Part shown: one piece after another, positions 39,941 through 48,614 of the stretch
Layout: each line of letters starts with the position of its first letter
Position numbering within the stretch: the first letter of the stretch is position 1
From: Ochromonas danica
Lineage: Eukaryota; Sar; Chrysophyceae; Chromulinales; Chromulinaceae
DNA length: 54,457 nt
Reading direction: 5' to 3'
Assembly (NCBI GenBank): GCA_015146655.1
Contig: VKHL01000177.1
Span: 1 to 54,457, forward strand
Position numbers and translations under genes: made by a program
The notes under the pieces: generated by a model
What the model was told of the DNA's origin: nothing
Databases searched by the model: none
Seen by the model: the letters and a program-made list of their open reading frames with translations, nothing else

Positions 39941-40428
39941 TTAGGCATCAGCAATGACGACCTCAACATCGACTCCAGGCTCGATGGAGATGTTGGTCAG
40001 CTGGCGCACCACCTCGGAGGGGCTGTGCAAGTCCAGGATACGCTTGTGGATGCGCATCTGCCAGCGGTCGAAGGTGTTGGTACCCTCACCGCAAGGAGAC
40101 TTGCGGACCATAAGGCGGAGGACCTTGGTGGGCATGCGGACGGGGCCGGTGACGCGGAGCTGCTTCTCGAGGGCCTTGTTCTTGAGCTCGGCGCAAACCT
40201 TCTCGAGGGCCTTCACCTTGGTGGAGGTGAGGGTGATGCGGATGCGGTGGATGGGCGCGGACTCCACCTCAGTGGTCTCAGCCTATCAGAAACAACACCA
40301 ACAAGGCCGCTATTAGTCCAGAGCCATGGGGAGGAAGGCGAGGGGAAGGCACAGAGGGAAGGACGCAGAGAGATGGAGAGGAAATGTCTCAGAGCACTTA
40401 CAGTAGCCTTGATAGGAGGAACAGACAT
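39941..40428 (-). CDS. RPS20: Cytosolic 40S ribosomal protein uS10 (RPS20)
   Basis: Exons 40428-40402 and 40282-39941, intron with GTAAGT donor; 122 residues. Exon 1 encodes MSVPPIKAT, exon 2 resumes [20 protein letters not shown]. The body is textbook uS10: [47 protein letters not shown] and [25 protein letters not shown]. The protein lies in the 40S head. Its frame is strongly GC-ending in codon third positions. An upstream GTG in the same frame is not the start; the short first exon supplies it. Confidence 0.97.
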
Positions 40429-40900
40429 TTTCAATGAGTGAAAGACAGTGAGTAAGCAGGACGAGGCGCTGGGGGACAGACGGTAACCTGATCCTGGACG
40501 CGGCTGGCTTGACGAGTGAGTGGCGCCCAGCCAGACCCACAGCCTCCTTTTCGAACTTTCGCGTAATCGTAAGCGAAAATATGAAAATTCGAAAATGACG
40601 ATCATTTTAAGTTAACAGGTATTGGATATTTGGGAATCTGGAAGAATGTAGAGCAGTGTGTTGCTAATGTAATGTTGTTGTTCAAGTACAGTTGATAAGA
40701 GCTAGAAGAACATTGCTAATTGTATTAAGCATAGCTCTACACACTCTAGGGATATACTACATATCCTAGTCAGTCTAATCTAGCTAGCCTGGTGTACACT
40801 TGTCACTGAGCTGGCTGAGGTCATGCGCTGATCATCGAGTGACTGTTGCCAGTGACTGTAGCAACAATAAACATCTCCTACCTATTGTAAACAACTGCTT
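40429..40900. other. Intergenic region upstream of uS10
   Basis: 472 bases between the uS10 start and the cytosine deaminase stop. GC-rich just 5' of uS10, then AT-rich with several near-palindromic short words around 40740-40800. No gene or RNA seen. Confidence 0.45.
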
Positions 40901-41386
40901 TTAAGCCTCAGTGGAGGGCTCGCCGATGTCCTCGTTCCAAAGGTGAGGCTGGCTGGTTGTGAAGGACTTCATCATCTCGATGGTCGCCTCCTCTTGCAGC
41001 AGGCAGAGTTCTACCCCGCGACAGGCGAGAAGGCCCTCCTCTCCTTGGAAGTTGACGTTCTCTCCGATGACCACGCGGGGGATCTTGTAGAGCAGGATGG
41101 TACCGGAGCACATCGCACAGGGAGACAAGGTGGTGTAGAGGGTGCAGCGGCGATAGGTGGAGGCGGGGAGGCGGCCAGTGTTCTCCAAACAATCTGTCTC
41201 GCCATGGCGAATGACACTCCCTTGTTGAACACGTCGATTGTGGCCTCGTCCGATCACTTTGCCGTCACAGACCAGCACAGCGCCAATGGGGATGCCGCCT
41301 GTGGCCAAGCCTTCTTGCGCCTCGCGTAGAGCTTCCTCATAGAACTGGCGATCTTCTTCAGTTGGGGTAGAGTAGGTCACTGTCAT
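40901..41386 (-). CDS. FCY1: Yeast FCY1-type cytosine deaminase
   Basis: Single exon of 161 residues; yeast FCY1 has 158. The start is the ATG at 41386, since the longer frame begins with GTG. Zinc ligands and catalytic acid are present: H61-G-E63 and the PCAMC box with C90 and C93. Segments GGIPIGAVLV, GRGHNRR, LENTGRLP, TLYTTLSPCAMC, PRVVIGENVNF and the C-terminal W-N-E-D-I-G-E match yeast cytosine deaminase, including the Trp and Asp that contact the pyrimidine. The enzyme turns cytosine into uracil in pyrimidine salvage. The close match favours free-base cytosine deaminase over guanine deaminase or tRNA deaminase. It has no targeting signal. This type is mainly fungal and bacterial, so transfer is possible, but base and codon use do not stand out from the ribosomal neighbours. 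Confidence 0.9.
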   Translation of the reverse strand: MTVTYSTPTEEDRQFYEEALREAQEGLATGGIPIGAVLVCDGKVIGRGHNRRVQQGSVIRHGETDCLENTGRLPASTYRRCTLYTTLSPCAMCSGTILLYKIPRVVIGENVNFQGEEGLLACRGVELCLLQEEATIEMMKSFTTSQPHLWNEDIGEPSTEA

Positions 41387-41680
41387 TCTGAGAGAGCTGT
41401 GAGAGGGTCTGTTGCTGGCTGTCAAAGCGGAAGATCTCCAACAAGCGCTCACAGACAGACGGCTGCTTCAAACTGCAACTTTCCGACTTAAAAGTCGACA
41501 TCGTGATTGATGGTGTTGACTACGCTAAATATAAAAAAATAGAAAATGTGTTTTGTGTTCACTGAATCGTGAATATTACTCATTCATCAAGACTACATTG
41601 AGGTCGGCACATCGCACCGTAGGACTGCCACGTATTAGCCCTCTCCTCAACCTGAAATAGTCTTCCCTAAGGCAGGACGC

Positions 41681-42554
41681 TTAATAGCGAGCGGTAGCGG
41701 CTCTCTTGGCGAGGAAGTCAGAGTACTCCTGCTGAGGGGTAGGAGTGAAGTGGGTTGGGGTCCAGAGGTCAGGGGTGAGGAAGGAGTAGGTCTTGGACAA
41801 GGCGTGGTAGACAGCCATGGCCAAGTTACCTCTGGTACGAGAGTGACCAGTGGTGGAGGAGTAGACGTCCTCAATACCAGCCATGTTCAACAACTTCTTG
41901 GGGATGAGAGAGGCCACAATGCCGGAACCACGAGGGGCAGGGATGAGGCGGGTGCGGACGGAACCGCACTTGCCAGAGACCTTGCAAGGCACGGTGTGGG
42001 GCTGGCCAGCGTTGAGACCCCAGTAACCTCTGCGGACAGGGATCAGGTTCATCTTGGCATTGATGATGCCACCGCGGATGGCAGTGGCGACTTCCTTGGC
42101 AGCCTTCACACCGAGACCGATGTGTCCGTTGCCATCACCCACAGCGACGTAGCACTTGAAGCGAGTGCGCTGACCAGCAGTGGTCTGCTTCTGCACAGGC
42201 ATGATCTTCATGACCTCGTCTCTCAAGGCAGGGCCGAGGAGGTGGTCAACGATCTGGTACTCCTTGATAGGGATGGAGAAGAGGAAGATCTCCTCCACAG
42301 AGCGGATCTTGCCCTCCTTCACGAGGCGGCCCAGCTTGGTCACAGGAACCCACTCCTCCTTCTCGCCCTTGTCACGGCGACCACCGCGGCCACCACGGCC
42401 ACCCTCACCGCGTCTAATAGACAGACACCACAGAGAGAAGACGATCAGAACATGTCGTGACAGGAATCAACGAAACTAGCGCTTTCTAAACTTACCCACG
42501 GCCGCGACCGCGTCCAAAACCACCTCTTCCTTCTCCTTCAGCACGTTCAGCCAT
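41681..42554 (-). CDS. RPS2: Cytosolic 40S ribosomal protein uS5 (RPS2)
   Basis: Exons 42554-42496 and 42413-41681, 792 bases, 263 residues, stop TAA. The intron splits a Gly codon inside an RG-rich N-terminal tail ([12 protein letters not shown] then [12 protein letters not shown]), a known arginine-methylation target in RPS2. The S5 domains follow: [72 protein letters not shown] and the C-terminal [11 protein letters not shown]. The protein sits at the mRNA entry side of the 40S subunit. Human RPS2 is about 30 residues longer, in the tail. Confidence 0.97.
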
Positions 42555-42881
42555 TGTTGATTGATGAGTAATTCACGTGGCAACAACAAATTGTGCTTCG
42601 AGCAGTCCAGCCCACCCCAGCCATCCCTTCAGAGGTTAAGTTCACATAGACTCCGAAAATACGAGAAAGCGAAAACATCCCCCAGCTCCAAAGCTGGAGC
42701 TCCAGATTTCCATTGTGCCAGATTTGGCACAATGGGGGTGTTACACAAGTTGAGCGATTACTGTAAATGTATCAATCACAGTCTACATCACACAATAGAT
42801 CAGTGGCAAGTAAGCATGCTGATATTTAGTCGAGGACAGCACAAGTAAAGGAAGTTAGTAAAACAGAGAAATGAGAAGTTA
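42555..42881. other. Intergenic region between USP 3' end and uS5 start, with paired hairpins
   Basis: 327 bases that include the uS5 promoter. The only clear structure is the pair of perfect inverted repeats at 42684-42735, described separately. No coding sequence was seen. Confidence 0.5.
42684..42735. repeat. Two adjacent perfect inverted repeats (hairpins)
   Basis: First: arms AGCTCCA (42684-42690) and TGGAGCT (42695-42701) around AAGC. Second: arms CCATTGTGCCA (42710-42720) and TGGCACAATGG (42725-42735) around GATT. They are eight bases apart. They could fold in DNA or RNA, at the uS5 5' side or the USP 3' side. Confidence 0.8.
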
Positions 42882-43988
42882 TCATATAACTCGGTCGTAT
42901 ATAACAATCATAGCTGAGCGGGGAGCATCCAGCGCATCGTCTGCCCCTAACCCCTCGCTATTGGAAGACGAGTAGGAGTCATCGTCATTATATGAGTCGT
43001 AATCACTGCCATCACCACTGTCGTAACTATTTACATGGTCGCTGCCAAAGGCTTCCTCAGCCAGCTGGTCGACATCGAAGCTTTGCTGGCAATCGTCATC
43101 GAAGACATGCCAGTGCTCTTCTTCCCTACTCTCTCCACTCTGTTGGCCATCTTGACTGCGATCGCGAATCAAGGCATAGTAGTGTCCACTGTGAGCAGTT
43201 CTTCCGCGGTGAATGGTCACACCTGACAGACGGTAGTGGTACTCTTCTGCGCCACTGCCACCTTCTCCTCCTCCTCCATCTTCTTCTTCCCTGCGTAGGA
43301 AGGGGGACATATCCAGTCTGTGGGGAAAGCTGAATCGGTTGTGAAGTTTGATTTTCCGGTGGTGTGCTCGGTCATAGCGGAAGCGATTGAAGAGGAAGAC
43401 GAGGTGTCGCGGCAGCTGCTTCAACACAATCTTCTTCTGAGTGGGCAGCAAAGCAGGAGGAGAGGGTGTGCTAGCAGCCTTCCCAGTGCGCCATCGAAAG
43501 TCCACAGTGTCTGTTTGCAAGAAGAGGCGCAGCGACTCGTCGAGAGAAGTCAGACCATCGACAGTCAAGGGCAGGAAATAGAAGCTTTCTTCGATATCCA
43601 TGCGCAGCTCTCCATCCTTGGCGCGGAGCTGATTCACCATGAGACCTCTTAGGAAGAGGTTGGCGAAATGTTGCTGTGGAGGGACTTCTCGCAGGGCGGA
43701 GAGCAGGTCTCCCAGGAACTCGCTGGCGTCCTTCTGCAGGGTGGCGTCCACAGCCTCGCCTATCGCATGTTGGATAGTGGCGTACAGGTCCAACACCACG
43801 TCTTCACCCACTGGTTTGCTAGAAACTTCTCCCATGGATAGGAAGACATCGCGTAGTTTCACCGCAGCTTTGCTGGACGAATCTGCTGTCCAGTGCTGCA
43901 CGCAGTCCTGTACGGCGGGCATGGCATAGAGCTGATAGAGAGTGGACAAGAGATAACAGAGAGATCCAGGATTCTCAAGAGTTCTCAT
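42882..43988 (-). CDS. Ubiquitin-specific protease (USP/UCH family C19), short form
   Basis: Single exon of 368 residues. The Cys box is at the very start: LENPGSLCYLLSTLYQLY, with catalytic C11. The middle has KDASEFLGDLLSAL, corresponding to the Q-x-D-A-x-E-F motif, and IEESFYFLPLTVDG plus LPRHLVFLFNRFRYD, as in USP9X/USP24/USP34-type enzymes. The His box is HRGRTAHSGHYYALIRD and the third residue lies in HWHVFDDDCQQSFD. An acidic Asp/Ser-rich stretch precedes the end (MIVIYDRVI). The usual zinc-ribbon Cys pairs are absent, as in USP34-like enzymes. It removes ubiquitin from substrates. The start may be incomplete if an unseen upstream exon exists, but the space to the divergent gene at 44155 is only 166 bases. 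Confidence 0.88.
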   Translation of the reverse strand: MRTLENPGSLCYLLSTLYQLYAMPAVQDCVQHWTADSSSKAAVKLRDVFLSMGEVSSKPVGEDVVLDLYATIQHAIGEAVDATLQKDASEFLGDLLSALREVPPQQHFANLFLRGLMVNQLRAKDGELRMDIEESFYFLPLTVDGLTSLDESLRLFLQTDTVDFRWRTGKAASTPSPPALLPTQKKIVLKQLPRHLVFLFNRFRYDRAHHRKIKLHNRFSFPHRLDMSPFLRREEEDGGGGEGGSGAEEYHYRLSGVTIHRGRTAHSGHYYALIRDRSQDGQQSGESREEEHWHVFDDDCQQSFDVDQLAEEAFGSDHVNSYDSGDGSDYDSYNDDDSYSSSNSEGLGADDALDAPRSAMIVIYDRVI

Positions 43989-44154
43989 CTTCTTCCTATC
44001 CTGGTCGTCAGTTGTTAGCAGTTAGTTGTTAGTTATTGTTGTGTTGCGGTGGATCTGATACAGTTTAGCCAAACAATCCATTCCAGAGAGATTCCAGAGA
44101 GTGAAATTTTGATTCTAACGTTAGAACAACTTCTTCTTGTATTTGGGCGGTGTC

Positions 44155-45852
44155 ATGGTTTCATTGCAAGCTCTGGTTTCTTCCTTTGTTATATTTGTCT
44201 TTCTTGGATGGCTCTGGCTGGCTCTGAGGTCCACCACTTCCAACTCCTCGGACAGCTGCGAGGACCCTCTTTGGTGTGATATCGACATGCCCTCACAGAG
44301 CGCCTTTGGATTCTCCGCGCCGAGCGACAAAGTGTTGTGGAGAAAGGCTCAACGCTATGCTGCTGAGGGTGTGCCAGTCCTTCTCGAGCACATCATGAAG
44401 GTGGCGAGGCACGAGGCGAACTTCGTGGACGGCAGTTTGTTCTTCCGAGACTATCACACCATCTCTGACTACTTCCTCGATGACCGTCGAGATTGGAGGG
44501 GTCTGTCGAAGACTGACAAGCACCTCAACTCTCTTCGAAGAGATGTGAATGCTCCGAGGAATCAATACCCCTGGAGGGCCAAGGTGAACAACTCCGTGCT
44601 GCCTCCACTCTACGAACTGAGGAATATCCTACGACGACCTATCGTGAAGATCGGCTACGCTGCCTTCGCGAAGGAAGGACTGCCTACGATCTCCAGCCCA
44701 TTCTTCATGGGAGACTTCGTGGGAGAGGTTGTGGTCAGCTTGCAGAAGTTCTTGACCGTGTGGACCGCACAGAAAGACCTCATCGACCTGCCCTTCATCG
44801 CAATGCATATAGCTCATGAGCATTGGGGCCTTCTTTCTACCTCCTTTGCCAATCGCACGATTGATTGGGGTGTTTGCTGTGAAGGAAGAGTGAAGGCCAT
44901 GCTGGACGACTTCCTCAACCACAACAAGACTGTGATGCTCCTCGTCAACCAGCACAGCAATATCAGCCACCCGAAGATTGTCCATCTTCCCTCAGGACTA
45001 CCTTTGCACTACACTAACTACAGGAAGATTCTGTGGGATAGCATGCTCACTCGAAACAAGAATCATATTCCACACGATAAATTCATGTTGACCTCCGTCC
45101 CTCGAAACTATCAGAAAACACACATGGGCTTGATGAGCTGTCTCGAGAGGCAGTTTTCTCCTGGACCCTTTTATGTCCTAGCTGACCCCAAAGTCAAGTT
45201 CCGCGATAGTTTCCATATGTTTAACTATTTCAATCGACTAGGAGGAGCGAGAATTAGTATCGTTCTGCCTGGCCCGTCTTATGACAGTCACAGGTAAAGA
45301 TACCTCCGATTATTGTCATTGTAACTCCATGTCTAAACTCTCTTATATAAATGGTTGATCTAGAATATGGGAATCCTTGACAATTGGTTGTATGATTGTG
45401 ATGGAGAAAGGCGTTGGACTTGATAAGCTGGTAAGTACTAGCACAGAGACTAAACTAGGTTTTGTTAATATTAGTCAACTAATACCAATGATGCCATGTC
45501 TTCACAGCTGTGGAAGCTGCCTGCCTTGCTGGTAGAAGACTTCTCGATGCTCACTCCCCAGCTCTTGCGCACTGCTTATATTGAAGCAATCTATCGAGTG
45601 TTGCGAGGCGATTTCGAACTGCAACGATTGACTCAATCCTTCTGGTGGTCATTCATCTTCAACGTGTCATCAGCCAGCAATCCATCTGCAGTGATCGAGG
45701 ATCATTTTCCATCAAAAGCAGAAGATGCAGGTTTCACTCGTCCTGCTCAGCCCTTCAACTGTGAAGTGGAGGTGGATGCAGGAGGAGGAAGGAAGAAGAA
45801 GCAATGGGCATGTGGTCGAGGCACGAAGCGCACTCCCAGAAGCTCTTGTTAG
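44155..45852 (+). CDS. Exostosin-like glycosyltransferase, copy A (type II membrane protein)
   Basis: Exons 44155-45293, 45364-45430 and 45508-45852 (1551 bases, 516 residues). A short cytoplasmic end and one transmembrane helix (FVIFVFLGWLWLAL) are followed by a luminal domain. Shared with copy B: WC-x-IDMP, LWR-x-AQ, a YF-[LM]-DDR block, HWGLLSTSFANRT or its equivalent, WG-x-CC and HPKIVHLPSGLPL. Exon 2 gives RIWESLTIGCMIVMEKGVGLDKL, and exon 3 LWKLPALLVEDFSMLTPQLL. This order (R-x-W-E, then G, then a hydrophobic strand, then L-P-x-L-x-V-x-D) is that of the C-terminal lobe of exostosin-like GT47-type enzymes. Sugar and acceptor are unknown. Golgi location is inferred. The protein ends in a basic tail with KKKQW and TKRTPRSSC. 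Exon 3 is identical to that of copy B. Confidence 0.82.
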
Positions 45853-46109
45853 GTTAGATGGAAAGGTCTATGGACAGATATGATAGTATGTGAGAAGATG
45901 GTGGATGGGAGGATCTGAGGCGAGGTAAGGTTGGTGTACATAGTGAAGTGGAGGTAGTGTTCCTATCTTTGCTTGATTTGATTTGAACGTAAGTTATTAT
46001 TATCCGAGGAGGTCTCTGATGTGGAAAAGCTAAGGGAGGAGTGCTTGAGGTGGAAGCTGTTATTGTGCCAAGGTTTGTATTTCTCAATGAGATATGGTAC
46101 TTTTACATC
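45480..46109 (+). repeat. 630-bp repeat, left copy (last exon and 3' flank of glycosyltransferase A)
   Basis: The 630 bases from 45480 to 46109 match 47776-48405 base for base as far as I can read. The block covers the last 28 bases of intron 2, all of exon 3 and 257 bases after the stop. Sequence outside it is unrelated or strongly diverged. Confidence 0.93.
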
Positions 46110-46499
46110 TTGCGCAGTAATATTAGTTTTTGATGTTATTAATATTTAATTATGTTACATGGGGAGAGATAACCGTTATTTATTAGTATGGTGTGTGAGA
46201 GAAAGATGTAGAAACACTGTTGCTGTTTTATCTTTAGCCCTACTAATGCGGGAAGTTACATAGTCCCTCTTTTCAAGGTATCTTTCGCTTTTATGGAGTT
46301 GGAGATAGACGAAACCCCGAAAGCTCTAAACTCCGAAAATGCTTACTCACGCCCGTAATCAAATCAGACACCCTCCAAAGATGACTTATAACTAACAATG
46401 TTTGAGATTGGCGGTGGGGAGGAGAGACTGTTATGAATTGAATTCCTGGATATCAAAACATTTGAAGGCGTTGAAGAATTGATAAAGTCAGTTCATGCC
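46110..46499. other. Spacer between the two glycosyltransferase genes
   Basis: 390 AT-rich bases after the left repeat copy and before the start codon of copy B. It must hold the promoter of copy B. No counterpart of this spacer occurs after the right repeat copy. Confidence 0.45.
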
Positions 46500-48148
46500 A
46501 TGAAAGCCTCAAAGATCGAGAGACTTCTGTATGCCTTGGCTTTGCTACTGTTTTGTGGCGCTCTTCTGATGATCTTTCATGTCGAGGATAAGCCCACTCT
46601 CCCTCCTGCAGAACTGCCACCTTGTGATGATGACAAATGGTGTTCGATTGATATGCCCACCGAGAGCCTTTTTCGATTCGATCCTCCTAACAATGCTACC
46701 CTTTGGCGCGTGGCTCAATTGAAGGCCCTTACTGGAGAGCCAATCCTGCTGGAGAAAGTGCTTGAGGTGTTGACCCATCCCATGGACTTCCTGGTCGGAG
46801 ACATTAACTTCAGGGAATATTTTGGCAAGGCAGACTATTTCATGGATGATCGACACGACTTCTCGTTCGTATTTTCAAACAATTCTAGAGTATTGGCAGT
46901 GCCTCACAAGGCTGACTTGCCGCCTTTCTTCTCTCCTCAAGGAAGAACACCCATCATCAGCACAGACTACCCACTCATCGAAAAGAGAAGCGGTCTAGGT
47001 AGTAGTCCGTACTTCAACGGGAAGATCAATCAGTTGGTGATGAACCATATGTTCAAGTTGCTCCCTCAATGGCAACAACAGCACAAGCAGATTGTCAAGC
47101 CATTCATCCTACTCTCTTCCTCCAACGAGAACTGGGGTATTCTCTCCACTTACTTCCCTAATCGAACGGCCAATTGGGGGCTTTGCTGCTCTGAAAACAT
47201 TCGACAGACGCTTATGCAAATGCTGGACCATGAAAAGACAGTCCTCTTCCTGACTAACCAGCACCACAACTTCACTCACCCTAAGCTCCTCTCCCTCCCT
47301 CGAGGACTCAATGTGCACAGAGAAAACCAAAGGAAATTCTTCTGGGATACTATGCTTCGTGGGAGAAATGCGAGAAAAGACCTGATGATATTCACTGCTT
47401 CTTCTTCTTGGGGTCCTCGTCCTCTTCTGCGAAAATGTATTTTGGAGAGAATAGCTTCACCTGATGTCCTTATGGAGCAGTATGGAGGGCAGACAAAACG
47501 AGTAGGAGAATTGGAGTATTTCATCAAGATGCTTCGAACACGAATGTCCATAGCATTGCCGGGACTTGGATATGACACATTCAGGTAGGCTGATTCCCTC
47601 ATTGAACATGATCTGCTGAAACTGACTCAAATTACTTGCAAATTTCTTTGCACTCCCTGCTAGACTTTGGGAGTCGATGACTTTAGGTGTTGTACCTGTG
47701 TTAGAGAAAGGAGTGGGCTTTGACAAACCCGTAAGTTCCCCCAGCTCTCTGATAGTCTCCGTGTTTTAACACAATTAATACCAATGATGCCATGTCTTCA
47801 CAGCTGTGGAAGCTGCCTGCCTTGCTGGTAGAAGACTTCTCGATGCTCACTCCCCAGCTCTTGCGCACTGCTTATATTGAAGCAATCTATCGAGTGTTGC
47901 GAGGCGATTTCGAACTGCAACGATTGACTCAATCCTTCTGGTGGTCATTCATCTTCAACGTGTCATCAGCCAGCAATCCATCTGCAGTGATCGAGGATCA
48001 TTTTCCATCAAAAGCAGAAGATGCAGGTTTCACTCGTCCTGCTCAGCCCTTCAACTGTGAAGTGGAGGTGGATGCAGGAGGAGGAAGGAAGAAGAAGCAA
48101 TGGGCATGTGGTCGAGGCACGAAGCGCACTCCCAGAAGCTCTTGTTAG
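46500..48148 (+). CDS. Exostosin-like glycosyltransferase, copy B (type II membrane protein)
   Basis: Exons 46500-47584, 47664-47730 and 47804-48148 (1497 bases, 498 residues), with the same intron phases (2, then 0) as copy A. Residues about 10-27 (LYALALLLFCGALLMIF) are the membrane anchor. The luminal part aligns with copy A at perhaps 40 percent identity: WCSIDMPTESLFRF, YFMDDRHDF, NWGILSTYFPNRTANWGLCC and HPKLLSLPRGL. Exon 2 (LWESMTLGVVPVLEKGVGFDKP) is closer to the exostosin consensus than copy A's because it keeps the hydrophobic PV strand after Gly. Exon 3 is identical to copy A's. Together they look like an old tandem duplication with a very recent homogenisation of the 3' end. Function beyond glycosyl transfer is unknown. 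Confidence 0.82.
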
Positions 48149-48405
48149 GTTAGATGGAAAGGTCTATGGACAGATATGATAGTATGTGAGAAGATGGTGG
48201 ATGGGAGGATCTGAGGCGAGGTAAGGTTGGTGTACATAGTGAAGTGGAGGTAGTGTTCCTATCTTTGCTTGATTTGATTTGAACGTAAGTTATTATTATC
48301 CGAGGAGGTCTCTGATGTGGAAAAGCTAAGGGAGGAGTGCTTGAGGTGGAAGCTGTTATTGTGCCAAGGTTTGTATTTCTCAATGAGATATGGTACTTTT
48401 ACATC
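47776..48405 (+). repeat. 630-bp repeat, right copy (last exon and 3' flank of glycosyltransferase B)
   Basis: Matches 45480-46109 exactly at an offset of 2296 bases. At its right end the flanks part at once: copy A continues TTGCGCAG, copy B ATTATGTA. At its left end there is one mismatch next to the boundary, then no similarity. Confidence 0.93.
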
Positions 48406-48614
48406 ATTATGTAGTGGGAGAATGGTGATGTACTGGGATGATGTCCATCCCGTGGATCATGAATTTCTGCTTGTTCCTAGCTAGTATATTATGTTTGCTT
48501 TCATGTAATAGTAGTAGGTGGAGGTTTTGCACCTCTTGAGCTGCTGAATAAGTTTGATTTGTTCGACGATGTCATTCAGATGGAAATGCTGAAAATGACT
48601 TATCTGATCAGTCT

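Follow-up and report, generated by a model that had tools for sequence, protein, structure and literature searches.

A base-identical last exon in two diverged tandem GT47-like genes of Ochromonas danica, probably the product of recent gene conversion

Introduction

Gene conversion between paralogues is already well described, also where the tract takes in introns and the flanks have diverged: the review PMC3966223 gives as cases the Caenorhabditis elegans pairs col-12/col-13 and act-1/act-3, of which the first lie in tandem, 1.8 kb apart, and have very little similarity in their flanks. The same review cites Walsh's model, according to which 'terminator mutations', for example the insertion of a mobile element that interrupts homology, slow or halt homogenisation. 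Chimeric and partial gene duplicates are the subject of the review PMC3449122, and ectopic conversion in Aspergillus that of PMC12844118. The present work concerns two predicted tandem genes, G1 and G2, of the chrysophyte Ochromonas danica, which lie in a stretch of 54,457 nucleotides (assembly GCA_015146655.1, contig VKHL01000177.1, positions 1 to 54,457 of the forward strand; hereafter the window). Their last exons, together with adjoining intron and 3' flank, are identical to the base within otherwise diverged genes, probably as the result of a recent ectopic conversion.

The locus compares with the described systems as follows. With the C. elegans pairs (PMC3966223) it has in common a near-identical coding region, intron included, between paralogues; unlike in the C. 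elegans cases, the tract in G1 consists of the terminal exon, part of an intron and 3' flank, and exon 1 is saturated at silent sites. As in Walsh's model, a dispersed repeat (the candidate mobile element) adjoins the edge of the homogenised tract, but here the comparison is drawn from one locus and an extrapolated edge. Like a chimeric duplicate (PMC3449122), G1 combines pieces of two origins that meet within an intron; under conversion, in contrast, no extra gene is gained. G1 was probably a full paralogue before the event, since its exons 1 and 2 align with the gene family and the position of intron 2 is common to it and to the family member G4.

Results

Positions 45480-46109 and 47776-48405 agreed over exactly 630 bp with 0 differences when extended base by base, just as the original prediction had stated; an alignment of 634 bp starting at 45476 contained a single mismatch. 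The content of the block was likewise as described there: the last 28 nt of intron 2, the whole of exon 3 with its stop codon, and 257 nt 3' of the stop. On its left side G1 and G2 had no exact run in common longer than 9 bp when kept in register, or 12 bp when any register was allowed. When the columns of their alignment were shuffled 1,000 times the longest run reached 60, so that chance is excluded as the origin of a run of 630. With up to 3 mismatches allowed, the 28-mer at the end of intron 2 occurred just twice in the window. The block holds approximately 365 near-neutral sites, all of them unchanged.

Gene models (Table 1) were predicted from reading frame and splice sites, not from RNA. 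In these models the introns of both genes are of the GT-AG type and preserve the frame, also through the joint at the left end of the block, which lies 49 nt into intron 2 of G1 and 45 nt into that of G2, at near-equal offsets. That exons 1 and 2 are only distantly alike in protein was confirmed, with 37% identity in exon 1 (350 aligned codons; proportion of synonymous differences, pS, by NG86, 0.751) and 61% in exon 2 (23 codons; pS 0.75). Exon 3 gave 100% (114 codons; pS 0.0). Silent sites are saturated in exon 1 and without a single difference in the block; identity that takes in silent and intron sites thus lies inside otherwise diverged genes. Judged by these sequences, G1 and G2 are old tandem paralogues in which the silent sites of exon 1 are saturated.

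Table 1 Features of the G1-G2 region of the window. Genes are predicted; roles of the two block copies are those of the probable direction of copying.
Feature	Positions	Strand	Basis or remark
G1 exon 1 (native, old paralogue)	44155..45293	+	Intact spliced frame, GT-AG; 37% amino acid identity to G2
G1 exon 2 (native)	45364..45430	+	Frame and splice sites; 61% amino acid identity to G2, 23 codons
G1 intron 2, hybrid	45431..45507	+	45431-45479 (49 nt) native; 45480-45507 (28 nt) equal to the end of G2 intron 2
Probable recipient copy of the 630-bp block (intron 2 end, exon 3, 257 nt past stop)	45480..46109	+	Base identity
G1 exon 3, identical to G2 exon 3, in frame with G1 exon 2	45508..45852	+	
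Degenerate copy of dispersed repeat of ~155 bp	46111..46236	+	Aligned 46125-46217, envelope 46111-46236, nhmmer E 7.3e-12
G2 5' flank homologous to G3 5' flank	46370..46427	+	91% over 58 with gaps; 95% over 56 columns, gaps left out
G2 stretch identical to G3	46496..48379	+	1,884 bp, both introns
G2 exon 1	46500..47584	+	
G2 exon 2	47664..47730	+	
Probable donor copy of the 630-bp block	47776..48405	+	Base identity
G2 exon 3	47804..48148	+	
G2 3' flank homologous to G3 3' flank, diverged	48380..48600	+	85% over 203 columns when gaps are excluded

Searches of the genome (31.19 Mb, 337 contigs) returned five matches to G2 exon 1, four to exon 3 and five to G1 exon 1, counts that are lower bounds. 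These matches belong to four genes: besides G1 and G2 there are G3 (contig C56) and G4 (contig C31), the latter with intron 2 at the same position and without intron 1. G2 and G4 are 60% identical in the amino acids and 57% in the nucleotides of exon 3 (longest shared word 8 bp; pS 0.89, saturated) and 37% in the amino acids of exon 1, so that exon 3 is the more conserved part of the family.

A third copy of the block, part of G3, matched positions 1-618 of the 630-bp query, the first 604 bases (window 47776-48379) in unbroken identity. It belongs to a longer stretch over which G2 equals G3, both introns included (Table 1). The homologous piece of 5' flank is set apart from the identical run by 68 poorly alignable G2 bases. 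In the alignment of G2 and G3, 39 mismatches were counted in 2,178 columns, 0 of them within the identical run, and no run in 2,000 shuffles exceeded 558. Because the identical run sits between flanks that are homologous but diverged on both sides, the straightforward reading of these sequences is an older duplication followed by recent conversion; G2 would thus be party to a second conversion, with a dispersed copy and in either direction. That G2 and G3 are two alleles of one region was rejected, as C56:140001-170000 matches the window (E 1e-5) just at the gene and its flanks. Allelic duplicate contigs were rejected as well: window 40001-44000 is without a near-identical second copy, with partial matches of 83-97% on C143 and C24.

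The encoded proteins are best called GT47-like. G2 matched the GT47 protein AO75L (PDB 8avq, 8asa, 8q8i) at E 3.9e-9, and a profile of G1, G2, and G4 matched it at E 6e-13 over profile positions 273-458; against Pfam Exostosin (PF03016) G2 scored 12.1 bits, under the gathering cut-off of 33.4, and G1 and G4 gave no match. Given a match to AO75L and a Pfam score under the cut-off, the proteins are described as GT47/exostosin-like and are not filed as family members. AO75L aligns with the C-terminal part of the profile; compared with AO75L, the G1/G2/G4 family has N- and C-terminal parts of its own. As the match to AO75L stops at residue 436 of G2 and exon 3 begins at residue 385, the copied exon covers the end of the domain and a tail. 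The tail, beyond the GT47-aligned part, ends in CGRGTKRTPR.SC, a motif common to all four genes. It was located at window 45811-45849 and 48107-48145, and also in G3 and G4, in two distinct sequences (one from the exon 3 shared by G1-G3, the other from G4) that differ at one position. Among 401 pattern matches in viral contigs, 0 were confirmed as virus relatives of the protein.

Immediately to the right of the block in G1 lies a degenerate copy of a dispersed repeat, a candidate MITE-like element (Table 1). The repeat profile was made from ten rows, which are nine distinct copies; a set of 11 rows, in which L051 and L056 are the same place, represents 10 distinct copies. The genome held 25 matches, window copy included, several of them partial. 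Extrapolated to the first position of the model, the element in the window would start at about 46111-46112, 2-3 bp past the end of the block. The left end TGTGCTATGAAG is present in eight of the 10 distinct copies (L062 and L063 differ), and the two ends, TGTGCTATGAAG... and ...CTTCATGCTAC, seem imperfectly inverted as judged by eye; flanks differ among most copies, tandem ones excepted, and the window copy has no recognisable end. It is approximately 75% identical to other copies over some 100 bases, as against 0 differences in the block, which probably places the repeat before the copying in time, unless the window copy is one of a diverged subfamily. Near G3 (30 kb) and G4 (10 kb) no copy was found, all hits being at E 7 or worse. 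Further copies (L044-L064, L066-L068) were recorded elsewhere; arrays of a 72-bp tandem unit lie next to the copies in L038, L042, and L043, and the repeat recurs every 1,023 bp on C270 and every 1,022 bp on C132.

Other features of the window and genome

Frames within window 15692-44021 matched the following Pfam models: EF2-type GTPase (EFL1 model under its cut-off), subtilase, ELP1, SNF2 and helicase-C domains (RING under its cut-off), glycerol-3-phosphate dehydrogenase, ribosomal protein S5, and ubiquitin hydrolase. RNA families at gathering score were absent from the window.

In the genome 47 matches to the chlorophyll-binding family were counted, some covering part of a gene. For one light-harvesting protein the best match was to fucoxanthin chlorophyll a/c proteins (E 1.1e-69), which points to an alga of the fucoxanthin type; another, of a different kind, had mixed best matches. 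A 2,407-bp unit with a light-harvesting gene occurs four times in tandem at C224:8673-16382 (L028-L031); L028 equals L031 over 3,489 bp, and in L029 and L030 the aligned parts deviate by a gap or a few bases. Two light-harvesting genes at C23:39951-40439 (L027) and C23:101867-102355 (L026) have about 666 bp in common at 96% and are possibly another homogenised pair; the stretches fetched around them gave no further mutual match at E 1e-5. At C166:19037-20349 two light-harvesting matches of equal score and opposite orientation, about 0.5 kb apart, form an inverted gene pair.

Discussion

The reading to which we give a probability of roughly 70% is a recent ectopic gene conversion at the DNA level, in which the 3' end of G2 was copied over that of G1. 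Conversion confined to the 3' end, or replacement of the terminal exon, was among the explanations first proposed for the locus and is the one best supported, with the separate evidence for conversion between G2 and G3 adding to it. Unspliced G2 DNA, comprising the 28 nt of intron 2, exon 3, and the 257 nt of flank, would have replaced its counterpart in G1. The resulting chimera would keep the 5' region of G1, its exons 1 and 2 and the 5' splice site of its intron 2, and would take from G2 the 3' splice site of that intron, the C-terminal segment, and the 3' end. Copying is placed at the DNA level because the tract contains intron sequence; a spliced mRNA as template was rejected, intron sequence lying inside both the G1/G2 and the G2/G3 tracts. 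An insertion that displaced the old exon 3 of G1 was also rejected, tblastn of the window with exon 3 of G2 and of G4 having revealed no remnant of a further one (best hit besides the two known copies, E 0.28).

The sequences make G2 the probable donor and G1 the probable recipient, since G2 continues past the block into flank shared with G3 and G1 past 46109 matches neither. At 48380-48405, G1 equals G2 and G3 differs; beyond 48379, G2 still aligns with G3 and runs on into the shared flank. The score of G1 past 46109 was reached by 227/300 shuffles against the G2 flank and by 46/300 against that of G3. Zero changes in approximately 365 sites set a 95% upper limit of 0.0041 substitutions per site per lineage, which at the rate of 4.77e-10 that PMC6604790 gives for Phaeodactylum is about 8.6 million generations; for G2/G3, with 719 sites, the figure is 4.4 million generations. 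The rate is that of another organism, and both figures indicate scale only.

Several points weigh against conversion of G1 by G2. The right flank of G1 shows no similarity to that of G2, which leaves the right joint without the visible bracketing homology that conversion would ideally show, and the part of intron 2 to the left of the other joint is not alike in the two genes. Outside the tract there are thus homologous exons 1 and 2 with a non-homologous piece of intron on one side, and the repeat with no similarity on the other. The first 13 model positions of the repeat are unaligned in the window copy, so that its edge is extrapolated, and the coincidence of the repeat with the end of the tract was noted only afterwards and for a single locus. 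If the old exon 3 of G1 was as unlike that of G2 as G4's is (57% in nucleotides), it would have been a poor substrate, and recurrent earlier conversion or homology-poor repair must then be assumed. The sequences leave room for recurrent conversion that would have kept exon 3 alike.

These same abrupt edges, passing from identity to no similarity as rearrangement joints do, suit a different history, which we consider unlikely on balance: tandem duplication of G2 (unit end 48405, junction near 46110 at the edge of the repeat) followed by a deletion that fused intron 2 of G1 to intron 2 of the first copy, with loss of G1 exon 3 and of exons 1 and 2 of that copy. The edge of a dispersed repeat at the right joint would be a plausible break site, and other exact tandem duplicates exist in the genome, as the light-harvesting unit of 2,407 bp illustrates. 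Two events are required, however, the contig gave no other sign of an additional G2 copy, and the near-equal offsets of the intron joints are better fitted by an alignment-guided exchange, though chance could give them. The original prediction held that a simple recent duplication cannot explain the locus, which is right for duplication alone and does not extend to duplication of G2 with a subsequent fusion deletion.

An error of assembly, in which the true last exon of G1 was replaced by that of G2, had been raised as a caution; in its favour, the assembly comprises 337 contigs and holds most of the block in triplicate. Against it, the window contains 0 N, frame and splice sites are intact across the joint, and no orphan exon 3 was found elsewhere in the assembly, the four exon 3 places found being all in known genes. 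The four tandem copies of the 2,407-bp unit were kept apart, which suggests, without proving, that repeats longer than 630 bp were resolved. An artefact was worth considering and appears very unlikely.

Selection on a shared C-terminal lobe, or shared 3' control, was also put forward earlier, and fits the greater conservation of exon 3 in the family (G2 and G4, 60% against 37% of amino acids for exon 1); as a cause of the likeness since the old duplication it is nonetheless hardly credible and insufficient, given that the G2-G4 pS of 0.89 shows family silent sites not to be frozen and that the silent sites, the 28 intron bases and the 257 flank bases are all identical.

If conversion of G1 by G2 is accepted, the repeat may bear on where it ended. 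The tract would stop where an old repeat in the 3' flank of G1 interrupted homology, and the repeat would perhaps have bounded it on the right as a 'terminator' of homology. A wider scheme is offered tentatively, as a possibility rather than an expectation: the old repeat would be a natural terminator of concerted evolution, to the left of which the terminal exon of the two ancient tandem paralogues would be overwritten repeatedly, making the C-terminal segment a shared, interchangeable module of three genes and leaving the N-terminal part of G1 free to evolve.

The locus is an unusually clean case, passing within one gene from saturated silent sites to zero differences; one of its joints falls in an intron, and the other end has a possible terminator beside it. 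It offers a place for studying the direction, limits, and timing of conversion, and for the G1-G4 family it means that whole-gene trees would mislead.

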